From the NCBI GenBank assembly GCA_903825315.1, contig CAIKAD010000005.1:62001-126000 (forward strand): a stretch of DNA of 64,000 nucleotides, in the 5' to 3' direction. Position 1 is the stretch's first letter. Each line of letters starts with the position of its first letter. Positions 14,913-61,718 of this stretch are shown here, in pieces. Below the pieces are notes generated by a model. The model was not told where the DNA came from and searched no databases. It saw nothing but the letters and a program-made list of their open reading frames with translations. Origin of the DNA: an uncultured Candidatus Peregrinibacteria bacterium (GTDB lineage: Bacteria > Patescibacteriota > Gracilibacteria > Peribacterales > Peribacteraceae). The position numbers and the translations under genes were made by a program.

Positions 14913-15018
14913 TTGAGGATGCAGAAGATGCAGAGGAATATTCATACTATCGCTCTGAAAGACCCTGTATGTCAGTTCTTCTGATTCCTCTGGATCTTCT
15001 GCTTCTTCTGCATCTTCC
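14913..15018. repeat. Word-built inverted repeat, GATGCAGA family (element A)
   Basis: Left arm 14913-14939 is made of GATGCAGA-type units and the right arm 14983-15018 is its imperfect reverse complement with one extra 9-nt unit. The core shares about 26 of 32 aligned positions with element B, including CGCTCTGA and TCTTCTG. It lies between HU and the KH-R3H gene, both on the plus strand. Confidence 0.75.
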
Positions 15019-18109: not shown

Positions 18110-18613
18110 ATGCGCTCGACTCTATCCACACTCTTGGCGCTCCTCGTAGCAGGCTCCGTGAGCCCGCTCACGGCATTGGCATACCAGACGCCGGAGGATG
18201 TACTCATTCAGCAGCTCAATTACTACAATGCGACCAATTACCTGCCACCCAATAGCAGGAACGTGCGTACGCTTCAGGAGCTGAATGAACAGCAACGGCA
18301 AGCACAGCACCCCTCCACCACCACCAACTACTGGCAGCAATCTTCTTCCACTGCATCTTCCGCCCAGTCTTCCGCATCGGTCACGCAGGGAACAACGGAC
18401 GAAGAACAAACAAATCTGGACAGCATGAGCGAGGAAGAACTCCTGCAGCTCTGGCAAGAGCTCAACGCCAATACCCCCACTACCAACTCCACCCTACAGC
18501 AACAGGACAAGCCCCTCGCCCCCACCGGGACGGCCACCGTCGCCGCACTGGGCGTTCTACTGCTGGGGGCAGCGGTGACATTATGGAGGGCAAGGCGGCT
18601 CCAGATGAAGTAA
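18110..18613 (+). CDS. Exported protein with a C-terminal LAPTG sorting-signal-like tail
   Basis: A 167-aa secreted protein. Signal peptide at residues 1-24 (MRSTLSTLLALLVAGSV), then a Gln/Ser/Thr-rich low-complexity middle. The C terminus reads LAPTG, a hydrophobic segment of about 18 residues, then a basic tail (RARRLQMK), which is the layout of a sortase substrate. Class E sortases recognise LAxTG. No sortase gene lies in this window. The alternative is a plain C-terminal membrane anchor. Confidence 0.65.
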   Translation: MRSTLSTLLALLVAGSVSPLTALAYQTPEDVLIQQLNYYNATNYLPPNSRNVRTLQELNEQQRQAQHPSTTTNYWQQSSSTASSAQSSASVTQGTTDEEQTNLDSMSEEELLQLWQELNANTPTTNSTLQQQDKPLAPTGTATVAALGVLLLGAAVTLWRARRLQMK

Positions 18614-18614
18614 C

Positions 18615-18739
18615 TAATGACCAATTGCCAATGACCAAAACATTTCTTTGAAATGCCTGGTAGATTTGTACCCACGACCAATCGCCCTATCAGCACTATC
18701 GTCTTTGGTCATTGGGATTTTGAAAATTGGTCATTTTCT
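18615..18739. repeat. Word-built inverted repeat, CCAATGACC family (element E)
   Basis: Left arm 18615-18641 and right arm 18702-18739 consist of ATGACCAATT/CCAATGACCAAA words in inverted orientation. The core of about 60 nt contains a short CATTTC...GAAATG hairpin. It begins right after the stop of the LAPTG gene. Confidence 0.75.
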
Positions 18740-18863: not shown

Positions 18864-20537
18864 ATGACAGGATATTCACTCACAGGCAAACACTGGACTA
18901 TTACGAAGGATTTCCGGGGACAGGGAAGCCATGCTCTCCTGCACGACCTGGTGAAGGACCGGGGTCTAAACAGCTCCACATGCATCACCCTACCAATGGA
19001 AGTTGCAGAAGCGCAGCCGCCCGATCTTCCGAAGGCCATGGAACGTATGAGATCGGCCGTTGCGTCCGGTGAAAAGATCGGCATCTTTGGCGATTATGAC
19101 GCGGACGGTATCACTGCCGTCGTGCTCATCCTCCGCTATTTCCACCGGAGAGGAATGAAGCCGACCGTCTATCTTCCCCACCGCCAGCAGGAAGGGTACG
19201 GACTCAAGGAGAGTTCGCTGCGTACGCTCCTCGCCCAAGGCATCACGCTGTTGTTGACTGTGGACACCGGTGTTTCTTCCGCGCAGGAACTCCAGATGGC
19301 ATGCGATGCAGGCGTGGACGTAATCGTGGTGGACCACCATCACCTGCCGGAGATGCTCCCGAACGCCGTTGCCATCCTCCATCCGGAACTGGCGCGGGGA
19401 ACGGTGGCGCCGGCCTCGGCTGCAGGTGTTGCTTTTGGACTTGTATCGGCGTTGGAAGACGGGACATGGAAGGGAAGGGACGAAGATCTCGCCCTTGCGG
19501 CGATCGGGACAGTTGCAGACCTCGTGGAACTCAAAGGCGAGAACCGTAATCTGGTTGCGGCGGGACTCACATCCCTCACAACGTTGCAGGGTGGGCCGCT
19601 CCCGCTCCTTCTCCGCCAATCGGGAATTACCGGCGCACCGACAAGCCGCGACATTGCATTCCGCATCGCCCCGCGCCTCAACGCCGCCGGCCGCATGGCC
19701 GACCCACGCGTGGCGCTGGAAGCGCTCCTCGGCGATCCCGAAGCACTCGTACAGCTGGAGACGTTCAATCGTGAGCGGCAGTCGCTCACGCAGGAAATCC
19801 TTCGCGAGCTCGAAAAGACCGCGGCGGCGACCCCGTCCTTCTTCCTCACGGTATCGAGTCCCGATTATCCCGCGGGCATCCTCGGCCTCATCGCAGGGAA
19901 ACTGACGGAATCTCTCGGCCGACCAAGCATGGCAGCGCAGGTGCAAGGCGATGTGTGCGTTGCCTCGCTGCGCAGCATCCCCGGCTTCCATGTGACGGAG
20001 GCGCTCACGAGTGTGGCAGACCTCCTCACGAGTTTCGGCGGCCACGCGCAGGCAGCAGGATGCACATTCCCCCATACCGCACTCCCGGAACTCCAGGAAC
20101 GCCTCAACGCCCATGCGGAATCCCTCCTCACGCCGCAGGACCTCGTCCCACGCCTATCCATCGACGGCATACTCGATCCTGCGGACGTCACGCTGGAACT
20201 CTGTAACGCACTGCAAACACTTGAGCCATTCGGTCAGGGCAATCCCGAGCCGCGGTTCCTCCTGCCCGGCGTGCGCTTCTCCACTCTCAAGCGCATCGGG
20301 CGCGAGTTCGCTCACCTTCAGGGAAGCATCGGACACCTCAAGGCGGTGGGATTCCGCCTGAGCTCAATCTTCGAAAAAATCCCGACGCACTGCGATGTGG
20401 CATGCCGGATCGGAATTGATACATGGAACGGGAATAATCGGCCGCAGATTTTTATTGAGGATGTAAGACCTGCAGTCTCGGCATTTTTTGAACCAGATCA
20501 GCAGGAAGCACCAAACCTCAAGCTCCAAGCACCATGA
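18864..20537 (+). CDS. recJ: Single-stranded-DNA-specific exonuclease RecJ
   Basis: 5'-3' exonuclease used in recombination and mismatch repair. The 557-aa protein carries the DHH phosphoesterase motifs: GDYDADGITA near 80-89, DTGVSS near 136, VDHHHLPE near 159, and the DHHA1 motif GGHAQAAG near 393. The ATG at 18864 is the first plausible start after element E. The last ten codons (EAPNLKLQAP) lie inside the left arm of the repeat element that carries the next gene. The TGA overlaps that gene's ATG as ATGA, so the element has probably replaced the original recJ tail. Confidence 0.93.
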   Translation: MTGYSLTGKHWTITKDFRGQGSHALLHDLVKDRGLNSSTCITLPMEVAEAQPPDLPKAMERMRSAVASGEKIGIFGDYDADGITAVVLILRYFHRRGMKPTVYLPHRQQEGYGLKESSLRTLLAQGITLLLTVDTGVSSAQELQMACDAGVDVIVVDHHHLPEMLPNAVAILHPELARGTVAPASAAGVAFGLVSALEDGTWKGRDEDLALAAIGTVADLVELKGENRNLVAAGLTSLTTLQGGPLPLLLRQSGITGAPTSRDIAFRIAPRLNAAGRMADPRVALEALLGDPEALVQLETFNRERQSLTQEILRELEKTAAATPSFFLTVSSPDYPAGILGLIAGKLTESLGRPSMAAQVQGDVCVASLRSIPGFHVTEALTSVADLLTSFGGHAQAAGCTFPHTALPELQERLNAHAESLLTPQDLVPRLSIDGILDPADVTLELCNALQTLEPFGQGNPEPRFLLPGVRFSTLKRIGREFAHLQGSIGHLKAVGFRLSSIFEKIPTHCDVACRIGIDTWNGNNRPQIFIEDVRPAVSAFFEPDQQEAPNLKLQAP

Positions 20538-20966
20538 CGCCAACCATCGCCACTCTCCAGGCAAAGAAATTCGATCTACCTGAACGCACCATGAAGTTTG
20601 CGAGCAGGACACGTGCATTTATCAAGCGTATCCCAAAATCTTTGGTTACATTCGATGACTGCAAACAGGTTGTGCGCTCCAGCGCATCCGTAGGTGCTAA
20701 TTATCTCGAAGCAGATGAGAGTGTTAGTGTGGATGACCGGATATACCGCATGAAGATATGCCGCAAAGAGGCAAAAGAAAGCTCGTTTTGGTTCCAATTA
20801 CTGAAAGAATCGACACCTCAAGAGCTTGAGACCGAACGGCTTGCACTCGCTAAGGAAAGTATTGAGCTCGTGAAAATCTTCCATTCGATCATCCGGAATA
20901 CGAAACCGGCTGACTGACCTTGTTTCTTTGTTGTTCAGTGAGTGCTTGTGGCTTGGTGCTTTTTCC
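20504..20966. mobile_element. Inverted-repeat element enclosing an S23/four-helix-bundle gene (element V)
   Basis: Left arm 20504-20533 and right arm 20941-20966 pair over AAGCACCAAxCCxCAAGC (about 17 of 19 positions) and flank one small gene. The left arm forms the end of recJ. The layout is that of 23S rRNA intervening sequences, which carry an S23 gene between complementary ends, but here it lies in intergenic DNA. Whether the element is mobile is inference. Confidence 0.55.
20534..20917 (+). CDS. Four-helix-bundle protein of the S23 / bAvd-like family
   Basis: A 127-aa protein matching the 'S23' family first seen in 23S rRNA intervening sequences and related in fold to Avd, the accessory protein of diversity-generating retroelements. 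Diagnostic stretches are FDLPERTMKFASRTRAF near 14-30, VVRSSASVGANYLEADES near 46-63, and MKICRKEAKESSFWFQLL near 74-91. The ATG overlaps the recJ stop and directly follows the left repeat arm. Its molecular function is unknown; basic four-helix-bundle members are thought to bind nucleic acid. No reverse transcriptase or rRNA gene is nearby. Confidence 0.85.
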   Translation: MTPTIATLQAKKFDLPERTMKFASRTRAFIKRIPKSLVTFDDCKQVVRSSASVGANYLEADESVSVDDRIYRMKICRKEAKESSFWFQLLKESTPQELETERLALAKESIELVKIFHSIIRNTKPAD

Positions 20967-26521: not shown

Positions 26522-26623
26522 GAGGAAATGCAATATTTGAAATGAGAAATGATCGAAATACTTCATGCTCTTGAAATGCTCCCAACATTTCTCATTTTGC
26601 ATTTCCAATTTACCATTTCCTCC
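26522..26623. repeat. Word-built inverted repeat, GGAAATGxAAAAT family (element H)
   Basis: Left arm 26522-26551 and right arm 26585-26623 share GAGGAAATG...GAAATGAGAAATG inverted. The core is 33 nt. It lies between a terminator and ndk, so it is not needed as the terminator of the upstream gene. Confidence 0.75.
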
Positions 26624-41573: not shown

Positions 41574-43053
<1,480 letters not shown>

Positions 43054-43300: not shown

Positions 43301-43598
43301 AAAAGAAATGGGAAACCATCAGTTATCACCCGAAGCTCGTTCTCTGGTATGAATTCCACCAAATGTGCTCACCATGACAAGCTATGAGCGCATATCGGGG
43401 AGTAGGGGATTAGCAGAGAAGGGGATTGAGCATTACTTCCTCAAGGTATGTGCTCACTGCTGCTGCACTATTTTGTTTGTTCTCACGCGCAGGCAAGAAT
43501 GCCTGCTCCCTGTTTGTTGTTTGCTTTCCGCTTCGGACAGGGCTCCGTGAATCTCCATAAATATTGTGCTCACAATTGTGTACACAATTTCTCTTCTG

Positions 43599-61622: not shown

Positions 61623-61718
61623 CTAGTACGTATCTTGGTATTTTGTATTTAGTATCTGCCAGAGAGAAGCAACGTCCGTGAATATACTAGATACAAAATA
61701 CGTAATACGAGATACTCC
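61623..61718. repeat. Word-built inverted repeat, TACGTATTTTGTA family (element U)
   Basis: Left arm 61623-61659 and right arm 61682-61718 pair over GTATCT...TATTTTGTAT...AGTAT, core 22 nt. The right arm contains GATACT, which serves as the -10 box of recR. Confidence 0.85.
61711..61716 (+). promoter_or_regulatory. -10 box of recR inside the repeat arm
   Basis: GATACT ends exactly 6 nt before the GTG at 61723. It decides that start over an ATG at 61678, which lies inside the repeat. Confidence 0.6.

Follow-up and report, generated by a model that had tools for sequence, protein, structure and literature searches.

In Leptospira and Coxiella, intervening sequences (IVSs) in the 23S rRNA encode S23 proteins (S23p), and the mobility of such rRNA IVSs has been a conjecture since 1993 (PMC4990558). 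Homology between S23 and Avd of the diversity-generating retroelements has also been noted (PMC10053308). Tandem heptamers have been described as TAACTGA in Beggiatoaceae (PMC4679880) and as GGGAATC in Xanthomonas and Nostoc (PMC4692102); the former work raised the idea that the mobile component could be a protein binding the repeats, and S23 is mentioned in neither paper.

Here we analyzed a 64,000-nt stretch of DNA (hereafter the window), in which an S23-family gene lies between two inverted arrays of a short word. To our knowledge, S23 proteins have been assigned no function, and we know of no catalytic site in them. Cyanobacteria carry short tandem heptamer repeats (STRR, SDR), and we know of no source proposed so far for the short tandem heptamers of bacterial genomes. 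The best explanation of positions 20505-20961 of the window is that they represent one member of a family of miniature mobile elements with a wide distribution. The family is apparently undescribed; no paper linking S23 genes to word arrays was found among the open-licence articles in PMC other than preprints.

An S23 gene between inverted word arrays at the recJ 3' end

The element lies behind recJ and consists of the following parts.

20505-20537, + strand: 3' end of recJ, the last ten codons (for EAPNLKLQAP) plus the stop, supplied by the left array
20506-20534, + strand: left word array, AAGCACC AAACCTC AAGCTCC AAGCACC A, period 7; doubles as the RecJ C-terminal tail
20534-20917, + strand: gene of the S23 four-helix-bundle family, 127 aa, with an inferred start codon and with profile and fold matches
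20938-20961, - strand: right word array, inverted, AAGCACC AAGCCAC AAGCACT CAC

The common word of the two arrays is the heptamer AAGCNCC. The arms at 20506-20523 and 20944-20961 are 89% complementary over 18 nt with a spacing of 420 nt, and the recJ TGA and the S23 ATG overlap as ATGA. The original prediction had described inverted arms around a 127-aa S23-type gene, with the left arm making the last ten recJ codons and the stop overlapping the start, and all of this was confirmed. The arms alone are weak evidence: their 16/18 matches give a score of 13, with the 95% and 99% points of the mismatched-pair null at 12 and 14.5. Because the window arms fall only between these two points, the window by itself is unconvincing, and the case for the element is made by comparison with other S23 loci.

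The protein scored 60.5 bits against TIGR02436 (cut-off 24) and 36.3 against PF05635 (cut-off 33.8). Its AlphaFold2 model reached a pLDDT of 89.3, with residues 1-12 unconfident. In Foldseek the best matches of the model were the solved S23 proteins 2rld and 2gsc, followed by Avd, in agreement with the proposal that S23 and Avd have a fold in common; the match to 2rld_E (probability 1.00, TM 0.73-0.85) qualifies the model as a four-helix fold. The 2rld and 2gsc entries contain five chains each and correspond to BT_0352 and XCC0516, respectively.

S23 was the only gene recognized between the arms, and no transposase of the element's own was found there by Pfam, which returned S23 and one sub-threshold DNA_pol_B_3 match. 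The element overlaps the recJ 3' end and lies outside rRNA, the sole rRNA in the window being a 16S gene at 41574-43053, and no group I/II intron structure was found with Rfam, which at gathering thresholds matched this 16S rRNA only. The source genome (1.29 Mb, 99.6% complete) carries seven S23 genes and gave no match to reverse transcriptase (PF00078) or Y1 transposase (PF01797), so movement driven by either enzyme was rejected. Carriage by phages was also rejected: the search gave no match for the window protein, distant Avd-like BalMu-1 matches came from a different S23 query only, and nothing was confirmed in IMG/VR.

The window also contains a weak word hairpin (CCAATGACCAAA / TTTGGTCATTGG) at 18610-18712, across the annotated-looking recJ start, with a word resembling that of S23 gene L007, and a word-like array (GAGAAGGGGATTGAGCA, TRF period 16) at 43400-43432, ~350 nt downstream of the 16S rRNA gene.

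Word arrays at S23 genes

All seven S23 genes of the source genome are flanked by inverted arrays, each of a different word: GATGCAGAG (L001, period 9), GAAACCGAG, GAGTAACA (L003, period 8), TCGTTTC/CGTTTTT, ACATTGTT (L005, period 8), AAGCNCC and CAATGAN. For the wider sample we took 100 S23 genes whose flanks were usable; they came from the class Peribacteria and from further groups (Verrucomicrobia, Kiritimatiellaeota, Aminicenantes, Phycisphaeraceae, Saccharibacteria and Parcubacteria). Period-matched inverted arrays of a 6-9-nt word passed the threshold at 81 of the 100, compared with 39/400 mismatched flank pairs and with 4/224 control ORFs of similar size from the window and S23-rich stretches (Fisher p ~3e-52). 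Held-out Patescibacteria S23 loci passed in 18 of 25 cases, versus 77/600 mismatched pairs. About one fifth of S23 loci fall below the threshold, and the window gene itself scores 21, just below the cut at 24. At 14 plasmid S23 loci judged by eye, most of them cyanobacterial, the arrays are clear in nearly all, with L143 showing short ones only. Arms are thus present at most S23 genes, as the original prediction had anticipated for relatives. S23 genes occur in 157/287 sampled Patescibacteria genomes and in several other phyla.

The median number of words per arm is 4.3 for periods 6 and 7, 3.4 for period 8 and 4.0 for period 9; arm size fits a fixed word number better than a fixed length, the measured extents being detector-dependent. 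The two arms of an element have their vocabulary in common and not their word order. Arms with word order shuffled on one side score equally, so copying from arm to arm is unsupported and collinear copying was rejected, by a test that is low-powered because each arm has few word units.

Some words have features of their own. The six-nt words of five S23 genes (L061, L078, L095, L098 and L099) are telomere-like (GGGTTA, GGGGTT). The nine-nt words of L001 and the other 9-nt loci are rich in A (0.43) and G (0.34) and poor in T (0.07) on the gene strand, and could be read in frame as acidic tails. On two cyanobacterial plasmids (L144 and L145), two distant S23 genes both lie between cas6 and cas4; their words differ (AAAAGCT vs GGTGACA) and they are not close on the S23 tree, so that either one site was occupied twice or the two have diverged strongly.

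Inheritance of the word with the S23 lineage

On a tree of 139 S23 proteins, 16 changes account for the word period (6, 7, 8 or 9), whereas shuffled periods require 35.9 on average and none of 200 shuffles came as low; the period label of L014 was left out of this test, and that of the window element was assigned by hand, the domain match having extended into the RecJ tail frame. The nearest S23 relative has the same period in 96/115 cases versus 55.9 after shuffling. The letters behave likewise: word similarity drops with protein distance from a cosine of 0.62 for the nearest pairs to 0.07 for the farthest (Mantel p 0.001), and this coupling is limited to the gene's own strand, with a nearest-neighbour similarity of 0.31 on the same strand and 0.04 on the reverse strand. 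Thus frequency, tree, letters and strand show that the word arrays belong with the S23 gene.

The relation is not a rigid one. A strict rule of one clade, one period holds for 9-nt words in the first 103 genes and was rejected, being broken by the held-out loci L180 and L189; L180 combines a 9-nt word with relatives whose words have 7 nt, and its period differs from that of its close relative L174. Prediction of held-out periods from the nearest BLAST neighbour was right in 10/18 cases, and several of the mispredictions pointed to L014, whose hand-set period of 8 is ambiguous.

The arrays could also be made by replication slippage, with S23 genes as passengers that settle or survive best there and do not act on the words. 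The different word order of the two arms is what slippage would give, but it does not account for period, letters and strand being inherited with the S23 lineage across genomes and phyla, and we regard this explanation as improbable.

Hairpins without a gene

Eleven strict inverted word hairpins of 80-120 nt were found in the window and none in 20 Markov-simulated windows. Each consists of two arms and a 20-67 nt loop. The original prediction had counted 18 elements besides the one with the gene; these 11 pass the strict inverted-array test, and the rest are weaker or one-armed arrays. The hairpins, given without strand, are as follows.

14915-15017: gene-less word hairpin, period 9, GATGCAGAG, matches L001
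16825-16934: gene-less word hairpin, period 9, matches L001; loop resembles that of 14915-15017
26539-26618: gene-less word hairpin, period 7, no match among the S23 genes of the source genome
28915-29034: gene-less word hairpin, period 9, matches L001
29709-29798: gene-less word hairpin, period 8, GAGTAACA, matches L003
32029-32117: gene-less word hairpin, period 7, no match among the S23 genes of the source genome
33162-33271: gene-less word hairpin, period 8, ACATTGTT, matches L005
39009-39106: gene-less word hairpin, period 7, no match among the S23 genes of the source genome
51435-51540: gene-less word hairpin, period 9, matches L001
58266-58369: gene-less word hairpin, period 8, best own-genome match L003; a foreign S23 gene, L076, is nearer
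61635-61715: gene-less word hairpin, period 7, no match among the S23 genes of the source genome

The word of the gene at the recJ end is not the one used by these hairpins: seven of the 11 match L001 (four), L003 (two) or L005 (one) instead, and four match none of the seven genes. Gene-less hairpins with the AAGCNCC word of the recJ-end gene were found at C1:22782-22877 and C2:66781-66861. The S23 genes of the source genome are a better fit to the words of the window hairpins than are randomly drawn sets of seven foreign S23 genes (p 0.001). Derivation of the gene-less forms from full elements by internal deletion was not shown and was rejected as a reading, since their loops are unrelated save for one clear pair (2/55 loop pairs above the 99% shuffle threshold).

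Genome-wide counts came from pattern searches and sampled stretches. The pattern GANGCAGANGANNCAGA, of the GATGCAGAG type, occurs 62 times in the source genome, with 0 occurrences of the reversed control; it occurs 16 times in genome G021, where S23 gene L067 bears that word, and at most four times in each of 57 other genomes. In the sampled stretches, 25 hairpins were found in 276 kb from S23-rich genomes versus 2 in 343 kb from S23-free genomes, a ~15-fold denser occurrence (p 2e-7 if hairpins are independent, without control for GC), and 5 of the 10 S23-rich samples held no hairpin. The gene-less hairpins therefore have words in common with the S23 genes of their own genome and are rare where S23 is absent. 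The four unmatched hairpins of the window would suit slippage with passenger genes, whereas the rarity of hairpins in S23-free genomes would not.

L038, an S23 relative whose match is interrupted by an in-frame stop and which is probably a decayed copy, has kept its AAACTCT word arms.

Filled and empty sites

Plasmid C of Trichormus variabilis (L150) and plasmid2 of Nostoc linckia NIES-25 (L247) are 98% identical and differ by a clean 428-nt insertion, which contains an S23 gene and its CAGAATT/CAGGAGT arms and has GTAAT at both junctions. Both arms came with the gene into a formerly array-free site. Judged from BLAST coverage, this site is occupied in three plasmids and empty in seven. Since a 5-nt match by chance has a probability of ~0.6%, GTAAT is a probable target duplication, yet one seen at a single site.

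In Azospirillum lipoferum 4B, one 23S copy holds a 469-nt S23 element with AGAGGAC arms, and other 23S copies of the strain have a 16-nt hairpin, GYGATCTTATGATCAC, at the same place; no target-site duplication was seen at this rRNA site. The gap between nrdB and nrdA is filled in Nostoc edaphicum and empty in Calothrix NIES-4105. An S23 subfamily with the word GGGGAGCA sits at the start of an integrase gene in L152, L161 and L162, where L163-L165 are empty, and also at other plasmid sites (L166-L169). These observations show that the S23 gene and its word arrays are gained at sites as a unit, and that one S23 lineage with its word is found at several sites. The array copy number varies among the orthologous insertions L152, L161 and L162, as slippage would predict, but the joint arrival of gene and both arms at the array-free plasmid site speaks against passengers settling in ready-made arrays.

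Alternatively, the arms might be recognized by an unrelated enzyme, a transposase or recombinase from host or plasmid, that does all the moving, with S23 as cargo or regulator. The probable 5-nt duplication is typical of many DNA transposases, S23 itself lacks a known catalytic site, several plasmid copies adjoin integrase genes, and our enzyme searches of the genome covered reverse transcriptase and Y1. However, neither of these two was detected there, and arm sequence and period differ wholly between S23 lineages within one genome and track S23, which is not expected from one transposase reading fixed ends, so we think such an enzyme an unlikely sole mover.

Of 30 recJ loci, nine, the window among them, have a word element whose start falls between -16 and +15 nt relative to the recJ stop codon. 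The words of these nine differ between loci, and one locus (L128) has a different S23 gene. A tenth automatic match, at L119, lies further off, and a TATTGAG array after the stop was seen there by eye. AAGCNCC arms lacking the S23 gene were found in 0/29 other recJ loci, which have other words or nothing there, and this too agrees with the original prediction. No sufficiently close empty-site relative was found for the window copy. At the recJ 3' end of L138 (genome G029), a very long direct array of the TTGGTTCG type starts right after the stop and runs to the contig end.

The position at recJ stops, together with several hairpins that fold far better than shuffles, could mean that the word hairpins are immobile host terminators or regulatory RNA hairpins at gene ends, bound by S23 as a regulator. 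This we find very hard to credit, because filled and empty sites show the gain of a whole unit, relatives differ in the word at the same site while most recJ loci have none, and the elements are also found in rRNA, in the nrdB-nrdA gap and in cas gene clusters.

Discussion

We propose, with a probability of about 0.66, that S23 genes and their words form a family of miniature mobile elements in which S23 recognizes the hairpin of its own word and a host enzyme spreads both full and gene-less elements. An S23-associated mobile system outside rRNA, as the original prediction had it, is strongly supported by the frequency of arrays, by filled and empty sites and by a gene family found at several sites. 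In this reading, a full element is a single S23 gene between two inverted arrays, in each of which a 6-9-nt word specific to the element is imperfectly repeated about four times. The S23 protein, probably as a ring of five, would recognize the hairpin of its own word, in the form of RNA or of single-stranded DNA, and recruit a host nuclease or polymerase. Full elements, and gene-less hairpins in trans, may then be copied to places that tolerate them, for instance stop codons, gaps between genes and the tips of rRNA helices, and protein and word would drift together. At recJ, the left array would have been accepted as an extension of the RecJ C-terminus, with the result that the start of S23 and the stop of recJ overlap.

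More tentatively, and at less than even odds, S23 word elements may be a mobile class of their own without a dedicated recombinase, in which the pentamer reads about one word per subunit, so that the protein would set the word length, and of which IVSs, cyanobacterial heptamers and other arrays of this sort would be products. In its boldest form, the words would be written by a protein-RNA complex.

The mobility of rRNA IVSs and the S23 proteins are directly linked here through one gene-plus-word unit, which also offers a candidate source for the short tandem heptamers of bacteria. The relation of S23 to its word is checkable, and culturable cyanobacteria provide sites whose state before and after is known.

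Of the known systems, short tandem heptamers (STRRs, TAACTGA, GGGAATC) are largely intergenic like the word arrays, and the cyanobacterial plasmid S23 genes sit in heptamer arrays; that the known repeats belong to the S23 word-element family is a lead. Avd (4DWL, 8UB7) has its fold in common with S23, but diversity-generating retroelements use a reverse transcriptase, and none was detected in the source genome. The RAYT/REPIN system (PMC3116915) resembles the S23 elements in that a gene lies beside its own repeat family, non-autonomous inverted doublets are scattered in the genome, and protein and repeat appear to co-evolve. In contrast, RAYT is a Y1 tyrosine transposase, of which the source genome gave no match, and in place of one palindrome the S23 elements have arrays of 6-9-nt words that drift. 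In our best reading, S23 word elements would be organized like RAYT/REPIN around an unrelated protein.

The closest system is the 23S IVS, which likewise has an S23 ORF of similar length, complementary ends, a size of 420-470 nt and a sporadic presence, and the arms of the Azospirillum IVS are word arrays as in the window element. This indicates that at least some 23S IVSs are members of a wider S23 word-element family that landed in rRNA. The window element differs in sitting outside rRNA, and lineage-specific word arms and word-matched gene-less hairpins are not described for IVSs in the literature compared. We file the S23 word element as a variant of the S23-IVS kind, with its gene and its ends at a different location.
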